Shown here one piece after another: positions 27,983-54,986 of a stretch of 64,000 nucleotides of DNA (within the stretch, counting starts at the first letter, position 1; each line of letters begins with the position of its first letter). The notes beneath the pieces are model-generated. The model saw only the letters and a list, made by a program, of their open reading frames with translations, did no database searches and was not told the DNA's origin. This stretch comes from Synechococcus sp. PCC 6312 (GTDB lineage Bacteria > Cyanobacteriota > Cyanobacteriia > Thermosynechococcales > Thermosynechococcaceae), in NCBI RefSeq assembly GCF_000316685.1, contig NC_019680.1:3233407-3297406 (forward strand), written 5' to 3'. The translations under genes and the position numbers were made by a program.

Positions 27983-28072
27983 GGTCTTCCTCCTCATTTT
28001 GTCGGAACAGGAGTAGGCAGATATAAATTCTACTCAGATTTTTATCTGGATTACCCACCTTGTTCCTACCCA

Positions 28073-28090: not shown

Positions 28091-28226
28091 TGGTAGTAGG
28101 TCACCCCAGCAAGAATAACCTGAAGCATGAAGAGGGGAAGTCCAGCATGGAGCCGAAAACCTCCCCTCCGTTTGAAATCGGGAGCTAAAACGGTTTCACC
28201 TCGCCACCTGGGATAGACGCAAACCT

Positions 28227-35603: not shown

Positions 35604-35986
35604 GGCAAAGGCTCTTGTGGGGCGGGTTCTTCTTGATAAATGCGAACAGTCCCTTTCTGAATGATCCACAATTTCCCAGTGATATCCATTGTCTTTAAGG
35701 CATTCACTAAGGTTTGTATCGCCTCTAACAAATCCGAGTGACTGGGTTGTTTGGGTAACCGTAGGACGGCAATGCCGCTATAGAGTGAGGGCTTAAATTG
35801 AAGTGGATTACTAAAATCTAAATCTAGTGTTACCAAGCATCGTTGCTCCTGCTGGCATACCGAGATCACTTTCGTGTCAGGAGCACTGATCAGATTTTGC
35901 TCAACAATGGTCGCCACATCATACCCGGCTTGTCGCAATAGATTTTGCCCACGATAACCAATGTTTTCGTCTAGCTTAAACTTCAT
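35600..35986 (-). CDS. DUF5615 PIN-like toxin
   Basis: 128 residues beginning MKFKLDENIGYRGQNLLRQAG, the N-terminal signature of DUF5615 (Mut7-C/PIN-like) proteins with acidic residues D6, E7 and later LVTLDLDFSNP. These are toxin candidates, usually paired with a DUF433 protein, as here (overlap ATGA at 35983-35986). Its own stop overlaps the drmA start, so translation of toxin and drmA is probably coupled. Confidence 0.8.
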   Translation of the reverse strand: MKFKLDENIGYRGQNLLRQAGYDVATIVEQNLISAPDTKVISVCQQEQRCLVTLDLDFSNPLQFKPSLYSGIAVLRLPKQPSHSDLLEAIQTLVNALKTMDITGKLWIIQKGTVRIYQEEPAPQEPLP

Positions 35987-36231
35987 GCGGCTGATTCAAT
36001 GGGTACATCTACAAATCGTTCTCTCGCCATTTCGGCTCCGTAGGCTAGACAGGCTAAAACATCGTCTGTGGTCAACTGCGGATATTCTTCTAGAATTTCT
36101 GAGGTGGTCATACCGCTCGCCATAAAGTCTAAAATCAACGACACCCAAATCCGATGTCCCTTGATGCAGGGTTTGCCAAAGCAAATGTTGGGGTTGACGG
36201 AAATACGTTGTAGTAGTTCTTGTCGGTTCAT
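35983..36231 (-). CDS. DUF433 antitoxin
   Basis: 82 residues. ISVNPNICFGKPCIKGHRIWV, then SLILDFMASGMTTSEILEEYPQL and TTDDVLACLAYGAEMARER make a complete DUF433 domain with its winged-helix part. Pairs with the downstream DUF5615 protein and likely represses the pair's own promoter. It lies 43 bases after the PIN toxin gene of another pair. Confidence 0.82.
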   Translation of the reverse strand: MNRQELLQRISVNPNICFGKPCIKGHRIWVSLILDFMASGMTTSEILEEYPQLTTDDVLACLAYGAEMARERFVDVPIESAA

Positions 36232-36274
36232 ATGTCAAATTCTTCGCAATTTAGTGTTTAATCAGAGTCTGCTA

Positions 36275-36682
36275 TCAAGGTAAGAGAGCAAAATATGGAA
36301 ACTGATTTGACTGAATGATGTCAAAATGCCTCCGATCTAACGTCAAAATATTTTGAATTTTGTGTTGATCTGCAAGACTAGCGAGACTGGCATTTACAAA
36401 TCCAATGGGGATGTCAGAATAAGCCCTCATAACTTCTATTGCCTTGCTGATATCTGACGCATCCATACCTAAATAGCTGAAGGCACCTGAGTTGACATCT
36501 TCAAAAAAGGCTCTCGACACTCTTTCTCCTAAATATTTAGTGACCATGTAGTCTACTTCCGGCAAAATAGAAACAGGAACAACCAATTCAAATAGGCTAA
36601 CAAGTCTAACGACATCGGCGTGGTGACGATCCTTTCGATTGATAAGGGCTATAACACCACTTGTGTCAGCCAGCATTTTCAT
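36275..36682 (-). CDS. PIN-domain toxin (VapC-like)
   Basis: About 135 residues from ATG 36682, whose first bases overlap the stop of the antitoxin gene (ATGA); the frame runs on to 36694. MLADTSGVIALINRKDRHH (Asp5), LPEVDYMV (Glu at about 43) and the late TLDRRHFDII (Asp) supply the metal-binding acidic set of a PIN ribonuclease. ASLASLADQHKIQNILTLDRRHF is in the family's usual order. Confidence 0.8.
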   Translation of the reverse strand: MKMLADTSGVIALINRKDRHHADVVRLVSLFELVVPVSILPEVDYMVTKYLGERVSRAFFEDVNSGAFSYLGMDASDISKAIEVMRAYSDIPIGFVNASLASLADQHKIQNILTLDRRHFDIIQSNQFPYFALLP

Positions 36683-36915
36683 GGTTCTTGCCACAGCAAA
36701 TCATCCACCCGTTCAGACAAGTCAGAATATTCACTCTCGCCCAGGCCGACTGACTTAGCCTGTACTCTCTGTAGGGCAAAAACATAGAGATTTAGGGCTT
36801 CTTGTACTAAATCGGAGACGGTTTTGTCTTGATTCTTAGCAATGGCTTCCAAATTATCCTGGAGGGGCTTGGGTAAAACAATGGGTGTTCCTTCCATTTG
36901 CTCTGCTCGTTGCAT
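36679..36915 (-). CDS. Ribbon-helix-helix-type antitoxin
   Basis: 78 residues: IVLPKPLQDNLEAIAKNQDKTVSDLVQEALNLYVF fits a CopG/RHH strand-helix-helix. The C-terminal part (SEYSDLSERVDDLLWQEP) would wrap the toxin. It overlaps the PIN toxin gene by four bases, typical of toxin-antitoxin pairs. It follows the end of the drmMI pseudogene by 38 bases on the same strand. Confidence 0.75.
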   Translation of the reverse strand: MQRAEQMEGTPIVLPKPLQDNLEAIAKNQDKTVSDLVQEALNLYVFALQRVQAKSVGLGESEYSDLSERVDDLLWQEP

Positions 36916-38249
36916 ACTGGGATTCCTCTCCCATCATAGATTTACTGATGGGGCTACATCTCCAGGCCAGGGATTGTGGAAGGTTCTGCCTTGGACTTAC
37001 CCTTTTTGGTGCCTCTAGCGGTTGAGGTGTTAGCTTTCTGGGCTGCTTTATGCCCCCACACTTCTTCTAAATGCCGCTGCTGGTTAAGTTCAAGGAGGCG
37101 AGCGAGGACTTCATCATGGGTGGCTTCAGGCCATTTGTAGCGCCAGGGAAGTTTGCGGTTGCCAGTTTTGACGAGGGCATCGAAGGCGGTGGCTTCTGCG
37201 GCGGTCGGGAAAAAGAGGTCACCGGAGGCAATGCGGTCTTGGGCTGTGGCGGGTAGGTCATCGGGGTCTGTATCGAGATAGTCGAGGGCAAAACCGCAAG
37301 TGGTGTCAATGTCATCCCAGCCGTAGGCAGCGAGGACGGCGCGATCCATTTGATCGTGCAGGTCACGGAGATGGAGAATGTCGGGGTTGTTCTCGGTGGG
37401 GTTGTGGAAGCGGTTGTAGGTGTCGGTGAGACCCTGATTATTGCGAATCATCAGGTTGGCGCAGTATTCGTAGTAGGTTTTGCCAATGGCTTCGAGGGCG
37501 GGGTTGTTTTCCCAGTTGGCAGGAAAGCGGAAGGTCTCAAAGCAGTCAGAGGGGTTGTAAGTAGATCGGTCCTCTAATGTTGCACTAAAGAATTGTGTCC
37601 AAATTTCATGAACGTGAGACTGCATTGATGCAAAGTATGAATGTTGATCAAGTGAAAAAACAACCAGCTTGTGACTGAAAACTAATTTGGAAGGTAAAAA
37701 AACAAAGTTCAGATATTTTGTAGCGGCAGCAGGTATAACTAAAACTCGATTACACTCCGCTATCGCTCTAGCAAGTTCTCTTCTATCTGCTCCAAATAGC
37801 CACCACTTAGCTGCTACAGTGCGATTCCAGTTATTTTTGGGTGGCAATGTAATTCTTCCTGGCTTAACCTTCTCCTCAACAATCGCCATCAAATCTGGCT
37901 ACTGTCGCACCTCTGCCTCGGTCATCTCCCCAAAATTAATCACATAACGACGATGGGCGTGGGTCGGGCTACTGTTCACCTCCTCACCGCCAATGTAGGG
38001 AAAAATGCGCTCGGCATTGCAGGGGTCTTTTTCAATCAGACGGTGCATTTCGGCAATGGGGGTCGCTTCTGGGTTGGTGTCATCAAAGGTAAAGCCCATG
38101 CCCAGCACATAGCTACCGATAAAACTCTTACCTTGATTTGCTAACAAAACCTGTGGATCATCATTTCCGCCTTTGGCAAACAAAAACGCCGTAATTTTTT
38201 CAACAGGTTTGCCGTCGAGAATGATCCAGGGTCTGTAAGGCATAATAAT

Positions 38250-38633
38250 TTACCAAATCCGATTGATACCATAGAGATCGAATACAACATCGGCACTAAC
38301 TAAAGGAACTTGCTCGACCAGGGATTGAGTGATGAGCAATCGGTCGAAGGGATCACGGTGCTGAGAGGGAAGAGTTGAGATCGCGTTGAGATGCGGAATC
38401 GCGATAGGTAAAATATCCATCTCATTGTTCTGGAGTTGCAACGGAATAAATTCGTTAAATGGCTTCGGTAGCGTGAGTTTGCTAATACTCACTTTGATGG
38501 CGATTTCCCAAAGGCTGGCCACACTCACCCAAATATTCACATCAGATTCGATCAGAGATTTCGCGACTGAACTCAATTGAGGATCGTTGTTCACAAACCA
38601 TAGAAATGTATGTGTGTCCAGTAGAATTCTCAT
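38250..38633 (-). CDS. PIN-domain toxin VapC
   Basis: 127 residues: MRILLDTHTFLWFVNND (Asp6), WVSVASLWEIAIKVSISKL (Glu), SQHRDPFDRLLITQSLVE (two Asp) and SADVVFDLYGI make a complete PIN domain of the PilT type, expected to cut RNA. It overlaps its antitoxin by ATGA. It sits inside the drmMI gene. Confidence 0.85.
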   Translation of the reverse strand: MRILLDTHTFLWFVNNDPQLSSVAKSLIESDVNIWVSVASLWEIAIKVSISKLTLPKPFNEFIPLQLQNNEMDILPIAIPHLNAISTLPSQHRDPFDRLLITQSLVEQVPLVSADVVFDLYGINRIW

Positions 38634-38839
38634 TCCATATACTCTCGAAAATCCTCTAGAGGAGCATCAAAGTCAGGAGCTATCCAAATTTGTCCTGCGG
38701 CACTACCACTCTGACGGCGTTTCTTGGTGGGTGGCAGTTCTTGTACGATGATTTGAATCTGCTTACCCTCCAGCGCTTCCGGCAAGGGAGTATTTAAGGT
38801 AATCGTGCCGTTTTGACACGTTGCAGTAAGAACAATCAT
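38630..38839 (-). CDS. Antitoxin of the VapBC pair inside drmMI
   Basis: 69 residues from ATG 38839 (MIVLTATCQNGTITLNTPLP); the frame is open back to 38941 but that part is out-of-frame drmMI sequence. LPEALEGKQIQIIVQELPP followed by a charged linker and WIAPDFDAPLEDFREYME is the layout of cyanobacterial antitoxins with a beta-strand DNA-binding half and an acidic toxin-binding tail. Confidence 0.75.
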   Translation of the reverse strand: MIVLTATCQNGTITLNTPLPEALEGKQIQIIVQELPPTKKRRQSGSAAGQIWIAPDFDAPLEDFREYME

Positions 38840-39810
38840 GACCGTTTTACCTAAGTAGCCAAAACCTAGCACACTGGCATTCAGCGAGTGACTTTCATAA
38901 TATGCACTAAACTCACAACCACTGCCGCTAATCCGGGCCATTTATAACGGCGGGTCGCGTTGTAAATCATGCCGCCATTGTTGCAAATAAACCGGAGCCC
39001 TGTACTGCGGGTGTCGCCCTGGGCAATGGTGTTGGTGGCGATGAGTCCCATAGTGCCGCCAGACCGTAGAAGCGTGTGGGATCGCCTAAAAAAGTGCGCC
39101 ACCACGTCCGCGTTGCCATGGGATTCGTGATGCACGATTTTGAGCCAATCGATATAGCCTTCAGGATTACCGTTGATGGTGGTATTTTTACCCGCGAACG
39201 GTGGATTTCCCACAATCCCATCAAACCCCGGATTCTTTCGATCAAACACCTCTGGAAACTCAATGTCCCAACTAAACGGCGTGATCGGTTTGGTGGCCTG
39301 GCGGAGAGCATTAGAAATAGTTTTGAGTTGGATAGAGGCTTCGTTGTCTTCAGTATCGATTGCTTGCCGGGAGTTACGGACAAGTGCAGTGTACTCCGAG
39401 AGCTTGGCATCACGCTCCTTCTTGCTGCTGCCATTAAAAAACGCCGCAATCTTCACATCGCCAATCAGCTTGGCTTCCTCTAGCTCCAGTTCTGCCCGCT
39501 GCCATTGGGACAGTTTTGCCTCGGCATCCTCATCCGTCCGCGTATCCAGCGCTTGAATCTGCGTTCTATACGCCTTCGCCCGATCGACCTTCTCCTTCAA
39601 GTACTTAAACAGCGGTAGGTCTTGCGTCGGGTCTTTGCCAAAGCTGCCAATCTCTGCCCGCGTCAGCCCCACCAGTGAATCCCCACACTTCAGTGCATGA
39701 TCGACAAAGGTAAAGGGTTGATCCTTCGCCAGAGTCACCAACCACAGCGACAACTTTGCCAGATTTACCGCAAAAGGGTTCTTATCCACCCCATATAGAC
39801 ACCGCTGGGC

Positions 39811-39818
39811 CACCCACC
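39811..39818. repeat. 4-bp tandem duplication in drmMI
   Basis: CACCCACC on the plus strand (GGTGGGTG in the gene). With one copy the frame reads YARRLVAQRCLYGVDKNPF across the site; with two copies it shifts. Confidence 0.7.
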
Positions 39819-42354
39819 AGGCGACGGGCATAGAGGAGGGGTTCGATCTCGGCAGGTAGATCGGCGGGCTGGCCATGGGTATCCCACGCCTCCACCAGCT
39901 TCTCCGCTAGTTGGCGACAGGCCTCCACCAAAAATGCAGCCGAACCCATCGCTAGGTCGCACACCTTCAACTCCAAAATTTGCTCTGGCGTGGGATGGTC
40001 ACCCAACTGCTCAAAAATGGGGCGCAGTGTCGTCGCTACAATCGGCTGAGTCAACTTCCGAGGCGTATAGTGCGACCCTGTCCGGCGGCGTTCTTCCCCC
40101 GGCTGAAGATAAAGAGACCCCGGTGGCAAAAGATTGGGGGTTCTCGATGACACCCGACTGCCCAGCGCTTCCATGATGTCGTCAACCGTCTTGGCTTGCT
40201 TCAGTGCCGTTGCTCCCTTGGCAGTCAGCTCGCAGTCAGCCTCTTTTTTCAGAACCTTGTCCCGACTTCCCGGCTTCTCGGCCAGTAGTGCCTCTAAATT
40301 CACCACCACATCCTTTGGCCTCACCGCAATCGAGAGGGACTCAGCTACCTCCACCTCATAGCCCATAATCGCCTCATACACCGAGCCGATCTGCTCCACA
40401 TCCAAAGCGCGGTAGGAGAGGCGTTCGCCATTCAGCATCAACAGCTTGTCCAGCATCCGGTAAATCACGCCATCGGGAATACGAGGCGCGGCTACCCGGC
40501 CATAGGACTGAAACTGGCTGGCCTGGGGTCGTCCTTCTAAAAACGGGTACTCATCCGGGTCAAACAGTTGCCCATGACGGGCGGGGAGATATGCTGCGTC
40601 GGCCCCACCCCCGTCATAGACCAGCCGAAACAAACTCAGCAGTGTAGCCCAAGCCCCATAACGTTGATCCATCGTGTCGGGGTAGTTGCCTGCATCCTCC
40701 CGCAGCTTTTCGTAGAGACCAGAGACAGCATAGTGACGCTGGTAAACCTCATCATCTGGCATCAACCCCTCGTCTTCGGCATAGAGGAGAAACACCAACC
40801 GCATCAAGGTGGTAATCAGGCCCCCGTAGATATGTTGCGGGTCATTTTCCGCTAGCTTTCGCAGCAGATTCCCATTCACCGCCGCATCAGCCGCTTGAAA
40901 ACCCCGCAGCAGTTCCCACAGGGCATCGAGTACCTGTTGTGCTAGTTGGGTTGACACCTGGGCCTGGTAATTGCGGCTCTCCACAAGCAGGCGACCTAAC
41001 CGCTGGTTTTCCGGCACATTAAACAGGCGATCAGCCCCTAAGAGTAAGTCCAGCGCTCCCAGAATTAGCCGCCCCGGTACTTCTGTCATCGCCTGCACTG
41101 GAAACGTTAGGTATCCCGACGACTCACCACTGGGCGCATACACCAACCGAATCTCAGTGGCATTCACCAGTACCCCTGCTGCAATGCCCGTTTCCCGCAG
41201 TAGCCGCTCAAACTTGGCCTGGAAACTTGCCTGCCACCCTTGCCCTGAAACTGCCGCTGGGTCATCCTCGTCAAAGGGCAGGCCTGGAGACAGTTCCTGA
41301 ATCAGCAAAATCCACTGGTCGCTGTCGGGGTCTTTAACACCATAGGTCGGCCGCAGAGTCTCCCCATAACTGGGTAACACCGCCGAGAGGTTGTCTGGGA
41401 GGTCTGCTGTGGCCACCAAGTCCTGGGGCATCCAGTTGAGCACCTGCTGGGTAAAAGCCGGGAAGTCCTTAATCCAAGCAATGCCTTCATCTCGCTGGGG
41501 AGAAATAGCCTCAGTGGAAACAATGGCCTGCAAGCGCTCTTGAATATCTACAAGCTTGGCGCGATCGATCACAGCCTGAGCTTTGATGAGGGCCGGCGGC
41601 GAAACGACTAAGCCAACGGGTTGCAGTAGTCCAAGCCATTCTTGGTGTCTAAAGGTGTCGAGATCGGTGGAGGGCATTAGCGTTACTTCAATGTGCGACT
41701 TAAGTAGATTTAAAGCTATTTACGTTTTTTCTTCATCGCTTTATTGATCTTGCTAACCAAAACGTAGAACTCATCAAAGTAGCCATTTTCGATGGTCGCC
41801 TTCTCTTTAAACTTTTTTAGCCTTTCTGCTTTAAGCTTTTGCTTGGCACTTTTTGCCAAATTCTTTTCGCTTCCCATTGCCTGAACAGCAAGGTCAGGAA
41901 ACTCTGAAAATACTTCACTATTCACAGAATCTGGCAATAATCCTTCTATATCTTTCTTGCCGGATTCATTCTTGCCAACAGAAAAATAGTCTTCATTACG
42001 TTTTAATTGAAGCTTTGAAAGTGCATTAGAGACTTTGTCGTCTGCATCCAGATCATACGTAATGATTATGCGCGTAAAGCGATTGAGCAAAAATTTAAGA
42101 AGAATTAAATTGTCAAAGAAGCCAACTCCTCCATATACAAATACTTCTCCGTTTAAGTCAAGTTTCTTTTCCGCATGCATACCTTCAGACAGAAGATGAA
42201 AATACTCTTTATCAATTTCACCCTCAACCAGAAGCAACTCATCTGAGTTCTTAAAGATAATTTCTTTCCATTCTTCAAAGGATGCCTTGTCTATGCCTAA
42301 GGATACTGCGAAGGGTTCCATCCAGTTTTCTTGGCTTGTTGTATCCCAGAAGTA

Positions 42355-43255
42355 TAGTAATTACAAATAAGTCTTAGAGATTGCGGTTGGCATAGTCTCG
42401 AATAATGTCATCAATGGCGGTGTCTGGCGTTGCATACTGTCTTCGTTTCTTCAAGGCAGCAAAATCGTGCTCAATCTTGTTAAAGTCTGGCGAGTATTTG
42501 GGTAGGAAGAGCACCTGATGCGCGCATTGGTGGGCAATGTCTCGAATCACATTTTTCCGGTGAATCGGGGCATTGTCTAAAATCAACACGGACGGGACTT
42601 GGAGGGTCGGTAATACCCACTCAGACAGCCATTTCTCAAAACATCCGGCATCAACGCTTCCCTCAACTACCATGGGGGCTAATAGAGCATCTTTGCATCT
42701 GGCCATGAGTAGATTTTCCCGTTTTTCTCGTTTTCCGGTTCTGTCTGCAAAAAGCTTGGTGCCTCGTTGGGCCCACCCCCAGGGTTGAGAGACTCGGTTG
42801 TCAAAGCCACTTTCATCGATGTAAACGAGACATCTCGACCCCTGTCGCTTCACAATCTCCTGTAATTGCTTGAGATAGACTTGACGTTCCTGAGGATTGC
42901 GTTCTCGATACTTTTGCTGTTTTTTTCGGGTAATTTTCATCTGCTTCAGGGCATACCAAATGGCGTGAATGTTCACCCCGAAATGGGCTGCTCGGTCACA
43001 GAGGCGGGCATTGGGGTGGTCTTTAACGTGCTGTTCTAGAACCGCCCAATCGAGCTTGCGCTGACGACGTTTGACAACGGTGGGACGTAAATCCTCTCGG
43101 TTCAACCAGTTATAGACCGTTGCCGGACACACCTGAAACCGACGAGATGCCTCTGCTTTGCTGCCACCCTCTTTTACAAAGGTCACGACTCGGGTGCGCA
43201 AATCCATGCTGTACGGCATTGACTTTTCATCTTTACTTCTTAATTGAAAGTACTA
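42355..43255 (-). mobile_element. IS630-family insertion sequence
   Basis: 901 bp flanked by TA (42353-42354 and 43256-43257), the target of this family. The ends are imperfect inverted repeats starting TAGTAATTACAAATAAG and TAGTACTTTCAATTAAG (14 of the first 17 match). Removing the element and one TA restores the interrupted frame exactly (GAG ACA TAC TTC TGG). Confidence 0.88.
42374..43219 (-). CDS. IS630-family transposase
   Basis: 281 residues, uninterrupted. N-terminal HTH (TRVVTFVKEGGSKAEASRRFQV, here cited as VTFVKEGGSKAEASRRF), then a second DNA-binding helix region, and the DDE catalytic domain: VYIDESGFDNR, VLILDNAPIHRK and LPKYSPDFNKIEHDFAALKKR (Asp, Asp, Glu). The single full reading frame suggests recent insertion and possibly retained activity. 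Confidence 0.92.
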   Translation of the reverse strand: MPYSMDLRTRVVTFVKEGGSKAEASRRFQVCPATVYNWLNREDLRPTVVKRRQRKLDWAVLEQHVKDHPNARLCDRAAHFGVNIHAIWYALKQMKITRKKQQKYRERNPQERQVYLKQLQEIVKRQGSRCLVYIDESGFDNRVSQPWGWAQRGTKLFADRTGKREKRENLLMARCKDALLAPMVVEGSVDAGCFEKWLSEWVLPTLQVPSVLILDNAPIHRKNVIRDIAHQCAHQVLFLPKYSPDFNKIEHDFAALKKRRQYATPDTAIDDIIRDYANRNL

Positions 43256-44353
43256 TATGTCTCTCGGAGCTGTTTGCCTACAATTTTTCTACACAATAGA
43301 AGATTGCAGTTAGGTTGCTCTAGGCTCAACATATGTGGGCTATGTGTAGTTGCTATGACCTGAACCTGAAATTCTTTTGACAAGTCCTGTAAAAGCTTTC
43401 CAAATTCAGCTTGAGCTGATGGGTGAAGAAAGCTCTCTGGTTCTTCAATTATGATAATGGGTGTAATCTTGTCCGACTCTGAAGCAGATTGGCTCATCCT
43501 CCTAGCTTGAAGAAGAGACAGAAGTATCTTTGTTCGGTTTTGAGTGCCGCTTCCCCAATCTTGAAGCGGTACTCCATGCTTCTTGTCTCCCAAAGAAATT
43601 GCCATCGGAAATCGCTCCAAGTTCATCCTTGGAATGGCAATCTCTACTTCATATTTATCATCTAATCTGCCAAGAAGATCTACAATTTCTTCTTTATGCT
43701 TTTGAGCAATGGTTCTTAAGACCTTAAAAAAGATTATCTTGGGCGTTATTAAGTTTCATCTTATGCGTTGCAGCAATGTCACCAAAAACCTTATATGAGT
43801 CGCCTAAGAAGAAGCTATCTTTTTGTTTTGTTGAGTTGTGAAATACTAAGACTCCAGAAGATATAAGTCTCTTATGTATCTCTTGAACCACGAAATAATC
43901 TTCTACGGGTTCTTCCTCGATGCTATTATCCATTATTATGAAAACGCTTTCTCGAGATGAATCCTCCTCAAACACCTTTCCAAGCTTAAGCTTGATTTCA
44001 TTAGGTGGCCATTCCTTTTCGAGGAATCTGGATATAAATCTAAACAATCCTGCATCCAGATCTTTTGAGATGGTGATAAAGATACTTATTTCTATTGATT
44101 CTCCTGACTCTTTCCATTGAGGTTAATCATTCCCAAAATCAATTTCTTTATCCCTCACAATCCCCATAAAAGGAAGTTCCTCATCTTCCTCAAAGAAGAG
44201 AAATATTGCTTTTAACAAATTTGACTTACCTGCATTGTTCTTCCCTGATATAGCAGTGTAGTAATTGAAAAAGGGGAATTCGCAGTCAGTTATGGACTTG
44301 TAATTTTTGATTTTAACTCTGTCAATTCTCATGGCTTAAACTCATTTTTCTGG

Positions 44354-47300
44354 TTAACTTGAAATAGGCCACAAATACACAATCCCTACTGGTTCAATCC
44401 GCTCAGCCTTCACCGTGTAGGCCTGCTGAATCCGCTCCGGTTCCGTCACAATCTCGTCTTCAAGCTGCTCCACCCGCGTCCGCCAGTGCCGCCGATCTGC
44501 TTCAATCTGCCGCATCTCATCTCGGTTAAACAAGCCCAGTTGCAACGTCTCATACTGCCGCTCCTGCTTCAGAATTCTGTCCCGCTGCTCCTCCAGCAAC
44601 GTCTTCATCTCCACCGCCTCCCGCTCACCCCGCTGGGTCAACTTGCGCTTGGCACTTTCCGTCAACTGCTGAGAACGTCGCTCCAGATGAGGCAGCAATT
44701 CCTCCACATCTCTGGCAGTACACTCCTTCATCCGATCCATCAATAAAGTTGGCACCTCCTGCAAACGACGATTGGCCAGCGATGTCTCCAGAATTTGTAG
44801 GACATCCCGCTTTTCCCCTTCCGTTAATGGCCGCAGTTTGCTTCGTCCCCTGGCCTGGGGGTCTAGCCATTCCGCCGCTACGGTCACAATTTCATCATGC
44901 AGCCGGGCCGCTCTCTCCCCGTATAACGACAGCCGCCCCAGCATAATCACCCTAGGAATAGGGTCATCAGTCCGGCACATACAGGCACGAGTCAGCTCAT
45001 CGTATAGAAAACCCTGGGATAAGAACCGCCCCAACAGCCGCTGCACCATGCGATGCTCCAAGTGAAGATGCACCACCTCCCCATCTAGAGACCCCGGATC
45101 ACGAAATACAATCGGGCGAATAGGGGCTTCTTTGCGCCATTCCCACAGTTTTTGTCCTCGCTGACGCGGTGCCCGCAGAGTGTCGAGAGTATTGGCCCAG
45201 GTCAGGTCTGCCCCGGATTGTTGGTCGAGGGCGGGTACTTCCCAGCGACTACACTCATCGTTGTCTACGTCCTCTGGTGCCGAAAGCGGTCTAAGTCCTG
45301 GTGCCCCCATTAGTTCCAGCGATACCGATAAAGCATCGCGAAAGTGGCGATCACTCAGGCTTAGCCACTCTTTTGAGTCGCGTAACATCCCCTCTAGCTC
45401 CACCTGTTGCTGCCGCAGTTTATCTTGCCGCAGCCGGATAGCCTCTAACTCTTCTTCTATCGCCCCGCTCCGCCCTTTAGAGACATCGTCAGCTTCGTCT
45501 GCCCCATTGATGGCACTGGCTAATGTCTCAGCCTCGTTGGCCCAAATACCCTTCTCCAACAGTTTCGAGACATTCTTTTCAATCACGGGTGATAGACTAC
45601 CCAACTCGTCGTGGATGCGCTTAGTCTTTTGCACCAGCACATCAATCACCCGGTCTTCGGGCCGCTGGGGTAACACAAAGTAGTGGCATCGCACTTCATC
45701 GGCTCGCTGGAGCTTGCGATCGATGCGACCATTGCGCTGCTCCATGCGGCTGGGGTTCCAGGGCACATCGAAGTGGAATAAGTCGGCACAGTAGTTTTGT
45801 AGGTTTACCCCCTCCCGCGCCGCATCGGTTGCTATCAAAATTCGCAGGGGGTGCTGGGCCGGATCGGCGTTGAAGGCGGCTTTGATTTCCTCGCGGCGAT
45901 CATCGCCCATACCGCCGTGGAAGATGCCAATGCGATCATCTTCACGATCAGAACCAGCAATTATGCGCTTAAGTTGCTGCTCGAGGTAGCGCTTAGTATC
46001 GGCATACTCAGTAAAAGTGAGGACTCGTCGGTTGAGCCAGTGGGCACCAGGCTGGCCCAAGTTAGGGCCAAGATTCTGCCGCAGCCAATTTTCCAGGGTC
46101 AAAATTCGGCTGTCGGGCTGTCGTCGGTTCAACTCAGCGATTTGAGTCATTGCCTCCAGCAGCTCTAGCTCCTCGCGGGAAATGGCTTCGCCTGCGGCAT
46201 AGGTAGCCTTTTCCATCTGGCTATCTTCTTCAGCAGTCACCTCCTCCTCTTGTAGGTCAGCCCGGTCATCGTCGCACCCAGGACTCTCTAACAGTAGGGA
46301 AAGACTACCCTGCCTAGTGACTTTATGCTGGGCCTGGCGCTCAATAGCCCGTCGATGGACGCGTAGGGTGCGGGCAAATGCCTCAATAGATGACAGCAAA
46401 CGCTTTTGCAGGTTGGTCATTACCAGCATGGCGGTGGTTTGGGCCGAGCGGGGAGAATCTTTCAGCCGCTGCTCGCAACAGGTGCGGTAGTTTTGCAGGA
46501 GCCGAGCCAACACTAGCTCTGGAGCATCTTCAGGTAACCCGTCGATGATGACCGATATAATCTCCCGCCGGGGAAAGTCGGGTTCATTAATTGCTCGCAG
46601 ATATTGCTTGAGTCGCCGCACCATAACAGCATCCAGCAGCTTTTTGTTGCGCACTGGCACCCCCCGGCAAAACCTTTGGGGGTCGAGAATTTCTAGCAGA
46701 GCTGCAAAGCTGTTGGAGTGCCCGTTATGGGGAGTAGCAGACAAAAATAGCCGATGCTCAAACCGGGGAGCCAAGTCGCGGACTACCTTGGTCAGTTGGG
46801 AGTCGATCGCATACCGAGAAGCGCTAGCCGGAGCCGCATTGTGGGCTTCATCCAAAATCAATAGTGCCCCTGCTGAAAACTCACCCAACCAATCCCGCAA
46901 GGGGGCGGCGTAGGTCTCATCCCGCAGTAGTGCATGGGAAATGATGAAGCGGGTATGGGTCTTCCAGGGATTGATACCGTAGCCCCGTTCTCGCCGCTTG
47001 GTAGAAACAAAGTCACGGTCAAACACAATAAAGGTGAGACCAAAGCGACTCTCCATCTCCTCCTGCCACTGGCGCACTACCGACGGTGGGCAAGAAATCA
47101 CTACCCGCTTAATCTTCTGCCGCATCAGCATCTCGCGCAGAATAAGACCCGCTTCGATAGTTTTGCCCAAGCCTACGTCGTCTGCGATAAACAGATTAAC
47201 CCTGGGCATCCGCAGGGCCTTGCGTAGGGGCTCTAGCTGGTAGGCTTTGACCTCAATTCCTGCCCGATAGGGGGCCTGAAATAACTTTGGCTCAGTAGAG

Positions 47301-47596
47301 GTAACGCAGTTCCACCGTAGCGCATGGAGGTAAGCCGAAAAGTAGCGGGGCTGATCAAATCCTTTATGAGCCACAGACTCCCAGGAGGAGGTTTCGATCA
47401 CCTGAGCGTCGACCTCCCGCTCCCAAAATACCTCTAGTGTTTCCCCCTGGGCATCATCCTCCAGGCAAGCCAAGCGTACCAGAGTGTCTCCTGTAGCCAC
47501 AGGAGCGGGGGTGATGTCTTCCACCAAAAATTGGCGCGAACGCACATGGACGATTTGACCAGGGCTGAGGGTATTGCTGTTCTCGGTGCCTGCCAA
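44354..47596 (-). CDS. drmD: DISARM SNF2-like helicase DrmD
   Basis: 1080 residues. A SNF2/SWI-type superfamily 2 helicase: Walker A IADDVGLGKTIEAGLILREM (about 130-149), DEAH-like LILDEAHNAAPAS (about 240-252), SATPHNGHSNSF, and in the second lobe TDAAREGVNLQ and MEQRNGRIDRKLQ (about 590-625). A long C-terminal helical region (ERRSQQLTESAKRKLTQRGE) follows. DrmD marks class 1 DISARM and pairs with DrmMI. Intact. It should be first in the operon, with its promoter in the 47.6-48.2 kb gap. Confidence 0.88.
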   Translation of the reverse strand: MAGTENSNTLSPGQIVHVRSRQFLVEDITPAPVATGDTLVRLACLEDDAQGETLEVFWEREVDAQVIETSSWESVAHKGFDQPRYFSAYLHALRWNCVTSTEPKLFQAPYRAGIEVKAYQLEPLRKALRMPRVNLFIADDVGLGKTIEAGLILREMLMRQKIKRVVISCPPSVVRQWQEEMESRFGLTFIVFDRDFVSTKRRERGYGINPWKTHTRFIISHALLRDETYAAPLRDWLGEFSAGALLILDEAHNAAPASASRYAIDSQLTKVVRDLAPRFEHRLFLSATPHNGHSNSFAALLEILDPQRFCRGVPVRNKKLLDAVMVRRLKQYLRAINEPDFPRREIISVIIDGLPEDAPELVLARLLQNYRTCCEQRLKDSPRSAQTTAMLVMTNLQKRLLSSIEAFARTLRVHRRAIERQAQHKVTRQGSLSLLLESPGCDDDRADLQEEEVTAEEDSQMEKATYAAGEAISREELELLEAMTQIAELNRRQPDSRILTLENWLRQNLGPNLGQPGAHWLNRRVLTFTEYADTKRYLEQQLKRIIAGSDREDDRIGIFHGGMGDDRREEIKAAFNADPAQHPLRILIATDAAREGVNLQNYCADLFHFDVPWNPSRMEQRNGRIDRKLQRADEVRCHYFVLPQRPEDRVIDVLVQKTKRIHDELGSLSPVIEKNVSKLLEKGIWANEAETLASAINGADEADDVSKGRSGAIEEELEAIRLRQDKLRQQQVELEGMLRDSKEWLSLSDRHFRDALSVSLELMGAPGLRPLSAPEDVDNDECSRWEVPALDQQSGADLTWANTLDTLRAPRQRGQKLWEWRKEAPIRPIVFRDPGSLDGEVVHLHLEHRMVQRLLGRFLSQGFLYDELTRACMCRTDDPIPRVIMLGRLSLYGERAARLHDEIVTVAAEWLDPQARGRSKLRPLTEGEKRDVLQILETSLANRRLQEVPTLLMDRMKECTARDVEELLPHLERRSQQLTESAKRKLTQRGEREAVEMKTLLEEQRDRILKQERQYETLQLGLFNRDEMRQIEADRRHWRTRVEQLEDEIVTEPERIQQAYTVKAERIEPVGIVYLWPISS

Positions 47597-48240
47597 TGGT
47601 TAATCTCCAATTCACCGCTAGAAAATGTGCATGGATAACGTTACTTACAAGTTGAGCATAGGCTAATCAGCCATGAGTTTCAGCGACAACCCTGCCCCAT
47701 TGACTAATAGACCATATTGCCTTGGAGAAGTGCTGGTCGCAACAACGAGTCAAATACGTAGCCTTATTCTGCTACTTTCACATGGGATGTAACGATAATT
47801 TATACAGTCATAAAATATCACTACCCTCCATAGTCACCTAATTACTAAGAAGTACCCGTAGACTTCCTATCGCCCCGAATTTTCGGGCAACTAGAAGCAA
47901 AGTGGGAGTGACCTTGTCTGGAAAAAGTAGACAGTGGACTTAAGCGGGAACAGGACTGGGGCACAATCCTGGTAGACCTTGCAGAAGAGACAAGCTATGA
48001 CAACTTCAAGTCGGAGCTAGCCGTTTACCAAGGCAAGGAAGGGCGAAACTACGAACATTCACTTCATAAAGTATGGGTGTTATGCACGACCTCCAGACTT
48101 CTCGGTAACTCCGGCGCTACCTAACGGAGCATGGACTAACCGCAGCAGCAGTAATAGCCAGACCCGCAAGCACCATCTACGGTCTATGGGTAACAAGGTG
48201 AGGCTATTGCTGTCGCCCGCAATTCAGAAAAGAAGCCCCC
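47597..48240. other. Intergenic region upstream of drmD
   Basis: About 640 bases, expected to hold the DISARM promoter. A plus-strand frame without a usual start (47912-48124, 70 codons: REQDWGTILVDLAEETSYD, FKSELAVYQGKEGRNYEH) reads like real protein and may be a fragment of an older gene. No repeat or RNA gene recognised. Confidence 0.35.
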
Positions 48241-48589
48241 CTAGACAGAATCATTCATCCACTCACACTTCGGGCAATCCCAGTGAGCTGGAGGCGAAGA
48301 TGCAGGGGGAAAACGTCATCACATCTGGGACAACAGCCCGAAATAATGGATGTGACTCTAATAAGTGGAGGCGGTTTTCAGCGGACACGACACGGCGAGT
48401 GACAACCAACTCCCCGTTGTAGTAGGCAGCCCCAACAGGTTCCCATAGATCGGTGTCATAACCTGGCTCCGGGGCATAATCTGGGCAGGCATCACTGCTC
48501 GGCCCACAGGGATGAATAGCACAGACCAAATACTGGCTGTGGGCGTTCATCTGACAAGACTCACACTGCTGAGATTTAGGCACCTGCAT
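48241..48589 (-). pseudogene. Cyanobacterial zinc-ribbon protein gene, frameshifted
   Basis: The N-terminus QQCESCQMNAHSQYLVCAIHP, DLWEPVGAAYYNGELVV and HPLFR is typical of a small cyanobacterial Zn-ribbon family. Beyond that the expected second half is spread over the other frames: CCPRCDDVFP in one, and HWDCPKCEWMNDSV (to TAG at 48241) in the third. So at least two small indels, one probably in a run of five C, have broken the CxxC...CxxC ribbon. The uninterrupted frame of 108 residues ends at 48263 with a nonsense tail. Confidence 0.62.
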
Positions 48590-48714
48590 CTGTTTCAGCT
48601 CTTAGCACACCATCTAAGTCCCCTTCTTCGCCCCCCATTTAGAGTTAATCCTAGTAACAACAGCAAACTAAGTGTGACCACATCCCTTAGTGGGAACTAA
48701 ACCCCAGGAACTAT

Positions 48715-49143
48715 TTAAGTTAGTTTCACCTGCTTTCGCATAGGCGGAAAGAGCATGGAACCATACGGTCTCAAGCAGGTGTCTTCAACAACACTGGTTT
48801 CAGCCGGTGCATCCTCAGTCCGCACCCAATGAAGTAGAGGTGTTTCATGGGGTTTGCAATAGTAATAGTCAGGAAGCCAGCGTCTTTTTGATGTTATCCA
48901 CACCTCCACTCTCTGTCCCTCGGTGTAACTGGCTCTTGGCCGAAAGAGCCTCTTTGAGCCTGGCATCTGAGACATTGCCACTTCCTCGGAAGTCTCCCAC
49001 CTACAGATTGCAGAAGGATTGACATCAAACAAAATACCATTGTGGTTCTCTACGGTAATGGAGCCTTTGCTCACATCTACAACCCGATAAGCTACCCCTA
49101 ACTTTCCGTAAACCATAGAACCAACAAGATGAAGATTTTCCAT
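48715..49143 (-). CDS. Hypothetical protein of the island, next to iterons
   Basis: 142 residues. The ATG follows GGAGG by five bases. GSMVYGKLGVAYRVVDVSKGSITVENHNG reads like a small beta-barrel, and FRPRASYTEGQRVEVWITSKRRWLPDYYY like a second one. No family recognised. The gene begins just past the iteron array, so its promoter may be controlled by whatever binds the repeats. Confidence 0.65.
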   Translation of the reverse strand: MENLHLVGSMVYGKLGVAYRVVDVSKGSITVENHNGILFDVNPSAICRWETSEEVAMSQMPGSKRLFRPRASYTEGQRVEVWITSKRRWLPDYYYCKPHETPLLHWVRTEDAPAETSVVEDTCLRPYGSMLFPPMRKQVKLT

Positions 49144-49196
49144 AAAGACCTCCAGAACAACCTTTAGAATTGGCGGAACAGATAGAAGGGAAAAAT

Positions 49197-49416
49197 ATCG
49201 TCACAATCGTCACAACCGTCACAGAATGCCTAAAAGCCTTGTCTGGAGGCACTTGTAGCTGTGACGATATTTGTGACGATACTCATAATCCGTGACGATA
49301 CTTGAGCAGTTTGTGACGATGACGTGACGATACTCTTTGAAATATCGTCACAGCCACAATCCTTACCAAGCAGGGATTCTCCCAACAGAGATAGAAGATG
49401 TGACGATTGTGACGAT
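49197..49416. repeat. Iteron array, candidate replication origin
   Basis: Eleven copies of TGTGACGAT (or a one-base variant) in 220 bases, on both strands. Minus orientation: 49197, 49206, 49215 (ACCGTCACA on the plus strand), 49344. Plus orientation: 49260, 49272, 49291, 49312, 49323, 49399, 49408. The leftmost three and rightmost two are in exact tandem of 9 bp. The array lies just 3' of the replication protein gene, as in origins of phage-satellite islands such as SaPIs. I take it as an origin by analogy. Confidence 0.7.
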
Positions 49417-49458
49417 ACTTTCATCAAACTTTCTGGTTAGGGATGCTGAAAGAGGGTG

Positions 49459-51887
49459 CTAGAACTCGTTGAGGCGCACCTTGATTTCAATCAAACGAGT
49501 CCCAGTTCCAGCTCCCCGTTCGGCAGAAATCAAAATGCCAACAGCAGCCAAGTCAGGCTTGAGGCGATTCAGTTGGCGGGATAGAGAGTTTGTCGCCTTG
49601 GGCCAGACCCGTGACCTGACAACTGAATCCTCAACGTAGTTTTCCAACTGCCTCAAAAGTTCAGTGGCCGTTCCCTTGAAGTTGCCCTGATCCGCAACCA
49701 TCAGCGAAATTGCCTCTGCCAGGGGCGAAGCCTCTAAGACTACTTGCCGAGAGAGTTCACGGTTTTTCTCAAACACTTCCAAGAAACCCTCATCTTTAGC
49801 AGGGTTAATCCCTAGTGCCTGTTCTGCTGCCATGGCCAGCTTGCCGTAATCAGCCAGTCGGGGTAAGTCCTTATCAGGCAACGTTTCCCGAATCGCTAAG
49901 GATTGAGAGGGAAGGGTAAGCAATGCGCCTAGAATTGCAGGCTGCATGGCTTCTAGCTTGGCTTTAAGCTGCTGCTTGGTCAGTCGCTTGGACTTGTCAA
50001 TCTCTGGCAACTGCACCATCAAGAGACGGTCTGCAAGGTCATCACGGGTGACCACATGATCAATAGCGGTAATGATTTGGGGCCTGGAAAACTCGAAGTT
50101 AGTTTCGCCGTCCGTCTCGAATAAGGTACGGGTTACGTGTCCAAAGCCTGTCGCAACCCGGCAGACGATGTCCGACTCTGCTTCAGAGATAAAGGAGACG
50201 TTATCGTAGCCCATGAGCCACCGCCGAGACCCTGTGATCCCAACCTTATGAGCATCCCCAGAAATATGAATCAGGGAAGCTTTGGAAGGGTCAATGGTGC
50301 TTTTCAGAAACTCTGCCAGGGTTGTTTTCCCACTACCCCGACACGCTACCAACAGCAACACTGGATAGTCGCCAAATGGGGTCAAACAGTAAATCCAGAA
50401 GGTAACGATCATGAGCCAAGTCCTTTTAGCCTCGGGAGTCTGAGCATCTAAGCCCATTAGGGTTTTGAAGTCATTGAGGTCGCCACCTTCGACAGGAATG
50501 GGTAATGGCAGCATGGAGGATGGCCGCCAAAAACGCACAGGAGGACGATCCACAATGCGCCAGCCTTGAGCATCAATCTCCACGGCTTGCCATTTATCAT
50601 TGCCCAAGTCCAAATAGATTTTGCCTTCATGCTCGGCAACTCGGAGCCAGACTTTAATCTCAGGCCCTTCATGGTTCGCCAAGGCTTCCAACGTGGTGCG
50701 GGCAGCGGTAAAGCCGTCAGAGTTGAGGCATTTACCACTCATTTCGTATATCCGCCGAGCGACCCATCGCTTAAATTCAGGCGAGCGCAAAGGGTAGGTG
50801 TGACGGCAATCCTCCACAATCACATCGACATAGGCTACCTTTACAGAGTCATGGAACAAGTAGCACTCCTTCTTGCACAGGTTTACCACCAACTCAGCGA
50901 CAGATGACTCCTTCTTCTGTTGCCCGGCCTGGGATTGGTACTTTTTCAGTGCGCTCAAGTCTGTCCCAGTTGGCTTGAGCACCTTGTCATAAAAACCGTT
51001 GTTCCGAAGATCAGCAACGCTAAAGTGCTTCAACAGTTCAGAGAGAATTGCTTCCTTGACGATGCCAGCAATTTTCGTTGCTTCGGTATCAATATGACCC
51101 CGCTCTTTCAGCCAGTCCACATGATTAGGGAGCAAGGTAGCCAGCCATTCAAACACCCCCATTGCATTCTCAGAAACAAGAGCAGCTAGGGCTTCTGCCG
51201 TGGCAAGAGGATTCTGATCCAACCACTCATCAAATCCGACTTTTTCTTTACTGGTAGAAGGAAAGCCACCAATCCTCACCTTGAGTAAAATACCTGTACG
51301 AACCAGAGCAGCAGCAACAGAGGGCTTTTCAATACCGTCAGAGTCGGTTAGGTACTCTTGGAATTTACCTGCGAGTGGGTGCTTAAAACCCGTTTTTTGG
51401 CCGGCCTCAATATCTGCCTTCGTTCCTAGCCAAACACCAAATGTTGAGACAACCCGAATCCCCCGAAGTGCTGCCTTTGCCGCACCAATCACGTCCTCAG
51501 TGCCTAGAATGACAGGCTGCTCAGTGTCAGGGTCTAAAACTGTTGTGGGGTCATAGACCAGACCCTTTGCCTTATCACGTAAAGGCAGAATGTACTTACC
51601 AGTGTGAGTGAGAGGTGGAAGGTCTTTAGATGCCCGATGTTCATTGATCTTGGTTAGGTGTGCCTGCTCAGATTCTTTAGAGTCATACCAGTTCCGGGCA
51701 ATTCCGAGCGTTCCCCCTTTAGAAAAGGGGAAAAAAGAACTCCATCGGGACTGGCAGCCACTTTACCAAAGCCGTAAGCCTTGCTTGTAGCTTCATCATA
51801 GGACAGGTGACGGATTCCGAGTAACTCGCAGTCTTCAGAGGTTAGACCCCGATGAGCGAGATAGGATTTGTGTTTGGTAGTAGTCAT
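49459..51887 (-). pseudogene. DUF3854/AAA replication protein, frameshifted near its start
   Basis: From ATG 51887 the first frame reads KSYLAHRGLTSEDCELLGI, SPDGVLFSPFLKG and then leaves at a run of five G (near 51715). The second frame, open from there to 49459, continues GTLGIARNWYDSKESEQAHL, HTGKYILPLRDKAKGL, then VVSTFGVWLG and YLTDSDGIEKPSV (TOPRIM-like DUF3854) and a P-loop ATPase (VACRGSGKTTLAEF, DNVSFISEAE, IITAIDHV). Six G would join them. Together about 810 residues, a primase-helicase-like Rep for an integrative element. A 677-residue product from ATG 51492 would still contain the ATPase. Confidence 0.72.
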
Positions 51888-51983
51888 TACCTTTTTCTCC
51901 ATATAGGTATTACTTGGAGTCAAAGGCGGTTAAACTTAGGTTGAGTTAGGTTTTGCCGCCTTCGACAAAGACTTTTGAAACCC

Positions 51984-52303: not shown

Positions 52304-52819
52304 TTAGTCAAGTTCTCTCATTTCATTCAGATATTTCCTGGCAGTGTTATCAGAAATACCCGCTAAGGACATAAACTTGGCTGTTGCTTCCTTTTTTGAA
52401 ATGTCTACATGCTGTGATTCCAGCAATCTTTTGACTATCTCTAATAATGTCCTACGCTCGTTGGGGTGCAACTTTTTCTCAAGACCACTTACCACTCGAC
52501 TTTCTTTGAATAAGAATGGTGGGTATTGATCTTTACTTTTTGCCCACTTCCTTAAGTCTTCTCGACTAACTGGGATTGGCTCCATCTCAGAACAACTGCG
52601 ACTGAATTTTGGGTTAATTCCGACTCGCAGTTTATTACCAGCGATTTTGTCGCCCCGATACCCACCTACTTCTTGTTCGATGACTCCCATCAATGCTTCA
52701 ACATTGCTTGGAATGTTGTTTGTATCTACTCGATTTGGGTCAAGCTCACACCATAGGCAGGCAGCGTTAAAAATAGTAAAGTCTTTTACTAAGTCCCAAA
52801 TAAAAAAGTCAATAGCCAT
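52304..52819 (-). CDS. Hypothetical protein of the island
   Basis: 171 residues: FFIWDLVKDFTIFNAACLWCELDPNRVD at the start and RKWAKSKDQYPPFLF in the middle are reminiscent of accessory proteins beside phage integrases, and ERRTLLEIVKRLLESQ ... SDNTARKYLNEM suggests a C-terminal HTH. Its ATG shares one base with the integrase stop, so the two are translated together. Function unknown. Confidence 0.7.
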   Translation of the reverse strand: MAIDFFIWDLVKDFTIFNAACLWCELDPNRVDTNNIPSNVEALMGVIEQEVGGYRGDKIAGNKLRVGINPKFSRSCSEMEPIPVSREDLRKWAKSKDQYPPFLFKESRVVSGLEKKLHPNERRTLLEIVKRLLESQHVDISKKEATAKFMSLAGISDNTARKYLNEMRELD

Positions 52820-54003
52820 CAGACTTCCTTTAACTTGTCTAAATAATCTGCCCAGGCCTGCATCATCTCCCGCCGCTCAGGTAAAAATGTGGTTCTGTTA
52901 TAAGCCCGTCCCAAAGGGTCACGAATACAATGGGTTAATTGGAGTTCGATAATGCCGGGGGGGTAATGTAACACCTCCTCTAAAATCGTTCGGCCTGTTG
53001 TACGAAATCCATGCCAGGTATGTTCTTCTCCTGAGATTCCTAATGCTTTTAACGCTTCACTAAGCGAGCCATGAGACATTGGGCGTTCCTTATCCCGTCT
53101 GTTAGGAAATAAATAAGTACCATGCCCGGTTACTAGGTGCAATTCTTGGAGAATCGTAATAGCTTGATTGCACAAAGGAACGATGTGATCAACGTTCCGT
53201 TGAGTCGAAAGATAACGCCATTCTTTTGCCTCAAAATTAATCTCCTCCCACATTGCACTTCGTAACTCACCCGGTCGAACAAAGAACAGAGGAGCCAACT
53301 TAAAGGCAGAGCAGATAACAAACGTGCCCCAATACCCATCAATCAACCTAACCAACCACCCAACATCATCTAGCTTGGTAATAGCGGGGAAATGATTTGC
53401 TTGCTGTTTTGGTGGCAATGCTCCTCTTAGGTCTTCTCCCGGATTGCGACTAGCTCGACCTGTAGCCAAGGCATACCCAAACACCCGCCTACAATTTCCC
53501 AATTCTCGATGGGCGGTTTCTACTACACCACGAGCCACAACTCTTTGTAAAACAGCTAGTAATTCAGGAGCCTCGATCTCACCAATGGGACGATGCCCAA
53601 TAAACGGAAAAATATCAACTTCAAGATTGTGCAGAACATCTTTGGCATGAGATACTGTCCAGCCTGAGGACATGGTTTCCCACCACTCGCGAGCGACCGT
53701 CTCAAACGTATTTGCAGCATTAAAGGCTGTTAAACGTTTCTGGGATTGCCGCTCGTTAGAAGGGTCTTTTTCATCAGCTAAAAGCCTCTTTACCTCATCT
53801 AGGCGTTTGCGAGCCTCTTTCAATGAAACCTTGGGATATGCCCCTAAACTGATTCGTTTCTCTTTACCCTGAAAACGATACTTAAACCGCCATCCCTTAG
53901 AGCATGGGGGGCGAATCTCTAAGTACAGGCCCTCACCATCCCATAGCCTTATTGTTTTCTCGGTTGTCTTAATTGCCTTGATTTGAATATCCGTGAGCTT
54001 CAT
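52819..54003 (-). CDS. P4-type tyrosine recombinase (integrase)
   Basis: About 394 residues from ATG 54003 (MKLTDIQIKAIKTT); the frame is open to 54033. The N-terminal Arm-binding DUF4102 domain (GLYLEIRPP, KRISLGAYPKVSLKEARKR), a SAM-like core domain, and the catalytic domain with RPGELRSAMWEE (Arg), HTWHGFRTTGRTIL (His-x-x-Arg), LTHCIRD (His) and AYNRTTF (Tyr) are all in place. It catalyses integration at the attachment site about 170 bp away. It reads away from the attachment site towards the element. Confidence 0.93.
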   Translation of the reverse strand: MKLTDIQIKAIKTTEKTIRLWDGEGLYLEIRPPCSKGWRFKYRFQGKEKRISLGAYPKVSLKEARKRLDEVKRLLADEKDPSNERQSQKRLTAFNAANTFETVAREWWETMSSGWTVSHAKDVLHNLEVDIFPFIGHRPIGEIEAPELLAVLQRVVARGVVETAHRELGNCRRVFGYALATGRASRNPGEDLRGALPPKQQANHFPAITKLDDVGWLVRLIDGYWGTFVICSAFKLAPLFFVRPGELRSAMWEEINFEAKEWRYLSTQRNVDHIVPLCNQAITILQELHLVTGHGTYLFPNRRDKERPMSHGSLSEALKALGISGEEHTWHGFRTTGRTILEEVLHYPPGIIELQLTHCIRDPLGRAYNRTTFLPERREMMQAWADYLDKLKEV

Positions 54004-54146
54004 ACGGGTGGCACAAATTTTAAGGCATCTCATTTGTATCCCCTATTGTGCCCCCACTTGCCCCTAGATGTCTATAGACTAAACAAGACCCAGTTAGACA
54101 TTCAAGTAAGCTAGAAGCCTTATTCTGAAAGAAGTCTGAGGCAGTC

Positions 54147-54986
54147 TTAGACTGTCTCAGACTTGAATGACATAGAACACCAATCACTCCAACTGCCCGC
54201 ATACAGTTTTGCCCCCGGCCGGCCCGCTAGCTCTAGTCCCAAGAGATTGACACAGGCTGTAACCCCAGAGCCACAATAGACCACCAGGCCGGCGGAATCG
54301 TCTAACTGCTGCCAATGGGCTTGGAGTTCCGGTACAGATTTCACAAAACCTTGGGGATCAGTAATCTCTGTCCAAGGATAGTTCACGGCTCCTGGAATAT
54401 GCCCAGCAATGGGATCAATGGGTTCAATTTCTCCTCGGTAACGGGCCGGTTCGCGGGAGTCAATTAAGACGCGGTTCGGATCTGGCTGATAGTCTTTGAC
54501 AAACTGATAATCAACCACCCAATCGAAGCGGGGCCTGGGCTGGAAATACCCTGTTTGTGGGACAGGAATTTCTTGAGAAATGGGCAGTTGGGCCTGGCAG
54601 TAGGCTTGATATCCCCCATCCAACACCGCAACCTGATCATGCCCTAACCAGCGCAGTAACCACCACAAACGGGCCGCAAAGCAGGAGCGAGAATCATCAT
54701 AGGCCACGACCCAGGTATCGGCATTAATTCCACATTTAGTTAAGGTTTCCCCAAGCGTTATTGGATCAGGAAGGGGATGGCGGCCTCCATGGGTTTCCAC
54801 CGGCCCAGATAAGTCCCGATTGAGATGTAAATAGTAAGCTCCTGGAATATGGCCCTGTTGATAGTGGCTCTCCCCCAGGCCTGGATCACTTAAGGAAAAG
54901 CGACAATCAATCACCACCAGGCCGGGCTGACCCAAGCGCAATCTTAACCATTGCACCGAGACAACTGCTGTCGGTTCTAACGTCAT
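54147..54986 (-). CDS. 3-mercaptopyruvate-type sulfurtransferase with island-supplied C-terminus
   Basis: 279 residues. Two rhodanese domains; the second has the active-site loop VVYCGSGVTACVN with CGSGV-TA of mercaptopyruvate sulfurtransferases, not the CRxGxR loop of thiosulfate rhodaneses. GHIPGAYYLHLNRDLSG and SREPARYRGEIEPIDPIAGHIPGAVNYPW (given in parts: SREPARYRGE, GHIPGAVNYPW) are family landmarks. The last eight codons after SWSDWCS (MSFKSETV) come from the island. Joined to the left repeat, the gene would end SWSDWCSYQI. The enzyme is likely still active, since the change touches only the extreme end. Confidence 0.85.
   Translation of the reverse strand: MTLEPTAVVSVQWLRLRLGQPGLVVIDCRFSLSDPGLGESHYQQGHIPGAYYLHLNRDLSGPVETHGGRHPLPDPITLGETLTKCGINADTWVVAYDDSRSCFAARLWWLLRWLGHDQVAVLDGGYQAYCQAQLPISQEIPVPQTGYFQPRPRFDWVVDYQFVKDYQPDPNRVLIDSREPARYRGEIEPIDPIAGHIPGAVNYPWTEITDPQGFVKSVPELQAHWQQLDDSAGLVVYCGSGVTACVNLLGLELAGRPGAKLYAGSWSDWCSMSFKSETV
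54175..54186. other. Putative right attachment site
   Basis: GAACACCAATCA, identical to 26774-26785 and lying in codons for DWCS of the sulfurtransferase, 172 bases from the integrase start. Confidence 0.72.

Follow-up and report, generated by a model that had tools for sequence, protein, structure and literature searches.

The 64-kb window (the whole stretch of DNA that was analysed) carries, between positions 49197 and 49416, eleven non-overlapping copies of the iteron TGTGACGAT, eight of which are exact while three contain one mismatch. The array starts 44 bp beyond the stop codon of a minus-strand rep gene (49459-51492), and integrase, AlpA and rep genes are all read from the same strand (Table 1). 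The original prediction had described eleven iterons on both strands, some of them in tight 9-bp tandem, just 3' of a primase-helicase-like gene, and the array agrees with this description in each respect. Seven copies lie on the plus strand (starting at 49260, 49272, 49291 [CGTGACGAT], 49312, 49323 [CGTGACGAT], 49399 and 49408) and four on the minus strand (49197, 49206, 49215 [TGTGACGGT] and 49344), with the tight 9-bp tandems standing at both edges (49197/49206/49215 and 49399/49408). These edge tandems form a 23-nt inverted repeat that is 96% complementary. Between the two outer iteron sets, the middle of the array holds further iterons and is not clearly A/T-rich.

Table 1. Features of the island, with positions and strands given for the window
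Feature	Position	Strand	Basis or remark
Att core, tentative, second 12-bp copy, just past FemAB gene	26774..26785	+	weak
Segment beyond the DISARM cargo	27454..29264	-	shares 84% identity with the second island's segment past BREX
DISARM cargo: drmD, drmMI (broken), drmA, drmB (broken), drmC	29507..47596	-	
IS630-type transposase gene inside DISARM stretch	42374-43219		
Module shared with second island	48025..51797	-	100% identical to C1:880-884 kb (inverted), there beside BREX
108-aa protein	48263..48589	-	DUF6464-like segment; within identical module
142-aa protein, directly after rep and array	48715..49143	-	same-place relatives in four other loci
Edge tandem, three iterons, A/T-rich border (GGGAAAAATA)	49192..49223	-	inverted-repeat arm I1
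Iteron array, 11 copies, predicted origin	49197..49416	.	counts and conservation beside Rep relatives
Box 2, GACAAGGCTTTTAG in rep direction	49230..49243	-	Gibbs motif over 45 spacers
Box 1, GGTAAGGATTGTGG in rep direction	49354..49367	-	Gibbs motif over 45 spacers
Opposite edge tandem, two iterons, inverted relative to the first	49399..49421	+	inverted repeat and iteron count
Rep ORF with start codon, 677 aa, SF3/D5-like helicase and C-terminal winged helix	49459..51492	-	
Rep N-terminal end, other frame, 89-aa ORF	51654..51923	-	homology up to T6 run near 51738
AlpA-type regulator/excisionase, 76 aa	51984..52214	-	PF05930 E 7e-8; PHROG excisionase
171-aa protein between integrase and AlpA	52304..52819	-	conserved in G035 element
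P4-type tyrosine integrase	52819..54033	-	Arm-DNA-bind_3, Phage_int_M, Phage_integrase
Att core, tentative, GAACACCAATCA, 3' end of rhodanese gene	54175..54186	+	weak

An array of this kind is not expected by chance. All eight exact copies of TGTGACGAT in the window fall inside the array, against 0.16 expected, and none of 100 shuffled versions of the window reached eight. Within the 230-bp array region the most frequent 9-mer occurs eight times, while the maximum across 2,000 dinucleotide shuffles was two. In the genome as a whole (G000; 3.72 Mb, two contigs), the exact iteron is present 45 times: eight copies in the window, eight in a second array (C1:882378-882597) and 29 as isolated singles. 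Since its occurrences are confined to two array sites and isolated singles, TGTGACGAT is not a scattered repeat family; genome-wide scatter is what the original prediction had named as speaking against it. A separate repeat, CCAGGCCAA, is present five times inside 600 bp at positions 7001-7600 of the window and bears no relation to the iterons.

The P4-like integrase and AlpA-like protein that had been named in the prediction are encoded here by a P4-type tyrosine integrase gene and a gene with a PF05930 match, and the DISARM genes lie inside the same island, in keeping with the proposed integrative element. In this cargo, drmMI is spread over several frames and drmB is in two pieces. We tentatively place the ends of the island at a short and weakly matching 12-bp repeat, one copy of which precedes the start of int by 142 bp; this distance fits that in two other elements, whose int genes start 97 and 165 bp after the tRNA. 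The window contains no tRNA gene that could serve as the target, and Rfam gave no match in its 24-64 kb part. Synteny was of no help in locating the attachment site: in relatives, the genes for rhodanese and FemAB do not stand side by side, so that an empty site is not demonstrable. A segment of about 100 bp (26889-26989) recurs twice elsewhere in the genome, at C1:861016 and at C1:321355, and one of these copies sits just inside the end of the island carrying BREX.

The Rep protein

The Rep frame stays open up to position 51759. In relatives, the N-terminal part of the protein is encoded in a single frame, while the window sequence shifts by one base at a T6 run near 51738, and this shift is common to both identical copies of the module (window and C1:880 kb). 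It could be explained by a mutation, a systematic sequencing error or slippage. The T6 run does not match the pattern X_XXY_YYZ of a canonical -1 ribosomal slippery site, and a lost T is therefore the simpler reading. At the split itself (51730-51745) the T6 run is followed by CCCCTTTTCTAAAGGGG, and the relatives are in frame there.

The window Rep gave no significant family when compared with Pfam, NCBIfam and PHROGs, a sequence search of solved structures returned P-loop ATPases only, and DUF3854 was detected above threshold in the G010 relative only. The structure model of Rep has high confidence in the helicase, from roughly residue 290 onward, and in the C-terminal winged helix, but not in the N-terminal 180 residues; the C-terminal domain occupies about residues 680-760 of the 766-aa frame. 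Among solved folds, it comes closest to the SaPI5 primase-helicase (Z 20.5, 375 residues, rmsd 5.3), followed by the poxvirus D5/E5 helicases. Judged from this model, the helicase part is SaPI5/D5-like and does not show the succession of DUF3854 and a DEXDc helicase by which CyRepA proteins are defined; a predicted helicase with a C-terminal DNA-binding domain next to its own iteron array is instead the arrangement of SaPI/pFP11-type iteron replicons.

Rep relatives, their arrays and the sister islands

Relatives of Rep were found in eight of the 58 related genomes searched (the own genome included; two of the matches are weak) and in 16 of 390 genomes of the same class; a narrower Rep alignment searched against genome contigs yielded 16 loci. 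Further relatives come from Chamaesiphon, Petrachloros, a Thermosynechococcus MAG and MAGs named Nitrospira, Gemmatales, Acidiphilium and Hyphomicrobiales, while plasmid-borne ones, small plasmids among them, are present in Streptomyces, Methylobacterium, Methanothrix and Stanieria (pFP11, pH6Ac, pM44602 and Stanieria plasmids). When we inspected the DNA beside these genes, the check that the original prediction had proposed, an iteron array directly after the part encoding the helicase and winged helix was found at 25 of 40 loci, compared with 0.8% of 1,680 background windows; an array was counted when some 9-mer occurred at least four times in the 400 bp that follow the Rep match. Some of the 15 loci under this threshold derive from contig ends or from a degraded gene. 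Arrays are thus present in related islands, whose lack of them would have weighed against the prediction, and on these sequence comparisons the repeat-plus-rep unit is found again in many bacteria.

The iterons differ from element to element (TGTGACGATA, GCGGACGATA, AAGGACGCTA, GGTGACAACG, TCTGACGTTT, AGGGACGCAC) and share the core GACG, and the arrays, with 8-14 copies each, follow a common plan. Two to three outward-pointing tandem iterons with A/T-rich borders occupy each edge; the inner iterons are mixed, and as a rule two of the spacers are long. When 45 spacers were subjected to a Gibbs search, the motif NNNAAGGGTTTYAG emerged with 7.85 bits, against 5.2-5.7 bits in eight shuffled sets, and two AAGGGTTTYAG-like boxes belong to the plan. 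Hairpins in the spacers were considered as well; their folding did not go beyond that of shuffled sequences, and we therefore treat the spacer signal as a sequence motif. At 18 of the 25 loci the array is contained in the Rep reading frame; at two it straddles the stop codon, and at five, the window included, it is positioned past it. The persistence of the plan in such varied positions relative to coding sequence speaks for selection on the DNA itself. Distances between iterons show a weak correlation with those between winged helices (Mantel rho 0.22, p 0.009), and with helicase distance partialled out it is 0.18 (p 0.03). We count this correlation as supporting evidence only, because the iteron registers were set by hand.

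The second array of the genome is the mirror image of that in the window and is part of a 4.04-kb module. Over 3,773 bp (window positions 48025-51797), a block that comprises rep, the iterons and two small genes, there are no differences between the two modules, and at both edges the identity runs into diverged sequence. The second module adjoins a BREX system (BrxA, BrxC, PglX, PglZ, BrxL) and has a type I R-M system on its other side; it resides in an island of 45.4 kb (C1:860865-906359) that is bounded by a 55-bp tRNA-Val repeat. On the simplest reading of these sequences, the two islands would be related, would carry different cargo and would have exchanged their rep-ori module recently. 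A third island at a tRNA-Ala (C1:2.02-2.04 Mb; 30.7 kb, 84-bp att) carries an MmeI-type R-M gene, and is a decayed relative whose Rep has 69% identity and a break and whose array is shortened.

Seven islands of 8.6-45.4 kb are flanked by direct repeats that derive from tRNA ends, including compact ones of 8.6 kb (G062), 9.0 kb (G035), 11.2 kb (G073), 14.2 kb (G155) and 14.7 kb (G046), and in most of the seven a tyrosine recombinase gene adjoins the tRNA. The G035 element is colinear with the window in the order int, p171, AlpA, rep, iterons and small protein. The 14.7-kb element, inserted at a tRNA-Thr, encodes what the translations suggest to be type I R-M proteins (HsdR, HsdM and HsdS), so that defence cargo of a third kind accompanies this Rep family. 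The 9-kb element contains a weak match to a terminase small subunit (L026:15328-15777; E 5.5e-4 over 57 residues), and the 8.6-kb element encodes a Rad52/Erf-like annealing protein (L091:12941-13423).

A putative Rep-bound origin and the nature of the element

From the predicted fold of Rep, the place of the array and the relatives, the array is most probably the replication origin to which Rep binds in an integrative, replicating element with defence genes, a reading to which we assign a probability of roughly 80%. The integrase and the AlpA-type factor would excise the element, and Rep would bind the iterons through its C-terminal winged helix. The outward-pointing edge tandems may position helicase rings on the origin of about 220 bp, for which the AAGGGTTTYAG-like boxes would provide a second element; the SaPI5/D5-like helicase would then open the DNA, perhaps at the A/T-rich borders, and priming would fall to the TOPRIM-like (DUF3854) N-terminal domain of Rep itself where this is intact. 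Such an element, presumably self-replicating and transferable, would carry exchangeable defence systems, here DISARM and elsewhere in the genome BREX. It would offer a testable replicon for cyanobacterial islands with large defence systems and a possible route for the movement of DISARM and BREX, and an intact rep-ori unit might find use in cyanobacterial shuttle vectors. A constant plan with changing iteron sequences, mostly located in coding DNA, would moreover amount to a natural experiment on the co-evolution of an initiator and its binding sites.

Iterons lie directly 3' of the Rep gene in the origins of SaPIs and PICIs (PMC7581432, PMC6092414), and the C-terminal domains of SaPI Rep and SCCmec Cch2 bind such downstream iterons (PMC7581432). 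The likeness to SaPI-type satellites asserted by the original prediction is upheld by the layout of the array and the SaPI5-like helicase fold. SaPIs and PICIs (SaPI5; Gram-negative PICIs such as EcCICFT073) share with the window a helicase fold joined to a C-terminal DNA-binding domain, an iteron origin 3' of rep, int and AlpA genes on the same strand and defence or accessory cargo. They possess an archaeo-eukaryotic primase domain, whereas the window family is TOPRIM-like (DUF3854), and a central A/T-rich region between two iteron sets, in whose place the window has inner iterons and two boxes. Furthermore, the array of the window family is usually inside the rep frame, sequence identity is about 10%, and a helper is unproven. 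The SCCmec Cch/Cch2 systems are likewise integrative and have a D5-like helicase with repeats downstream of the helicase operon that are bound by the C-terminal domain, but they use serine recombinases, a CCPol-MP primase and three short iterons. P4-like satellites have a P4-type integrase, AlpA, a primase-helicase and defence cargo in common with the window, while their Rep and origin layout differ; none of the window-island proteins scanned with PHROGs, which included part of the small ORFs, matched psu, sid or delta.

Plasmids supply the other set of counterparts. The Streptomyces theta plasmid pFP11, whose RepA is reported to bind iterons (PMC3583192), encodes a homologous helicase/winged-helix protein with 31% identity, which from the place of its gene would be this RepA. 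Its 13 iterons (AGGGACGCA) follow a similar plan with a box-like TATGCGGCTTTTGG; unlike the island in the window, pFP11 is a free plasmid, and its array is found about 550 bp past the stop codon. The CyRepA initiators of pSYSA, pCC5.2 and pAQ1 have an N-terminal DUF3854 as does the window family (detected in the G010 relative), but are described with a DEXDc helicase domain, and a search with the window Rep gave no match to these three plasmids.

An array between rep and the next gene could in principle be an operator through which Rep or AlpA controls the downstream genes, with no origin involved. This is very improbable, given that the array is contained in the rep frame, and does not precede a gene, at 18 of 25 loci, that 8-14 symmetric copies with tandem edges fit origins better, and that the pFP11 iterons fall within the reported replication locus. 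For the putative origin, the question is then what kind of element it serves. At somewhat less than even odds, we consider an integrative, plasmid-like element that needs no phage helper, its rep-ori unit driving a low-copy replicon which excises on occasion and is mobilised in some other way. The related Reps on pFP11, pH6Ac, pM44602 and the Stanieria plasmids, the common plan of the pFP11 array, and the known role of DUF3854 Reps as initiators of cyanobacterial plasmids (PMC10079941) all point this way; against it stand the satellite-like order of tRNA att and AlpA, and no partition or transfer gene was noticed among the compact-island proteins scanned. A helper-dependent, PICI-like satellite that a cyanophage induces and packages, with the array as its origin, appears unlikely, though it would account for int, AlpA, rep and ori lying co-oriented in the order seen in Gram-negative PICIs (PMC6092414), for the compact relatives of 8.6-14.7 kb, for the defence cargo, and for the terminase-like and Rad52/Erf-like matches in two of them. 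The terminase match is short and of marginal E value, no capsid or packaging gene was seen among the scanned proteins of the window island, islands of 27-45 kb are big for satellites, and Rep relatives are also borne by plasmids. More doubtful still is the wider proposal of a cyanobacterial satellite family, with relatives elsewhere, whose iteron-plus-box origin usually sits in the rep tail and which spreads DISARM, BREX and type I R-M systems as exchangeable cargo on phage infection.

The window copy itself may be partly decayed and its activity perhaps lost, as the reading frame is shifted for the primase-like end of Rep and DISARM genes are broken. Taken to its end, this would mean a dead remnant, that is, an origin genuine by descent beside a non-working Rep in an island that neither excises nor replicates, and we regard this as a real possibility of a little less than even likelihood. 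The frameshift common to both module copies, the broken drmMI and drmB genes and the transposase gene within the DISARM stretch speak for it, but the array is intact and the ORF of 677 aa for the helicase and winged helix is open. The pFP11 relative (574 aa) also lacks the TOPRIM-like part and adjoins a separate primase-polymerase gene; by analogy, the 677-aa Rep of the window may be sufficient without its primase-like end.
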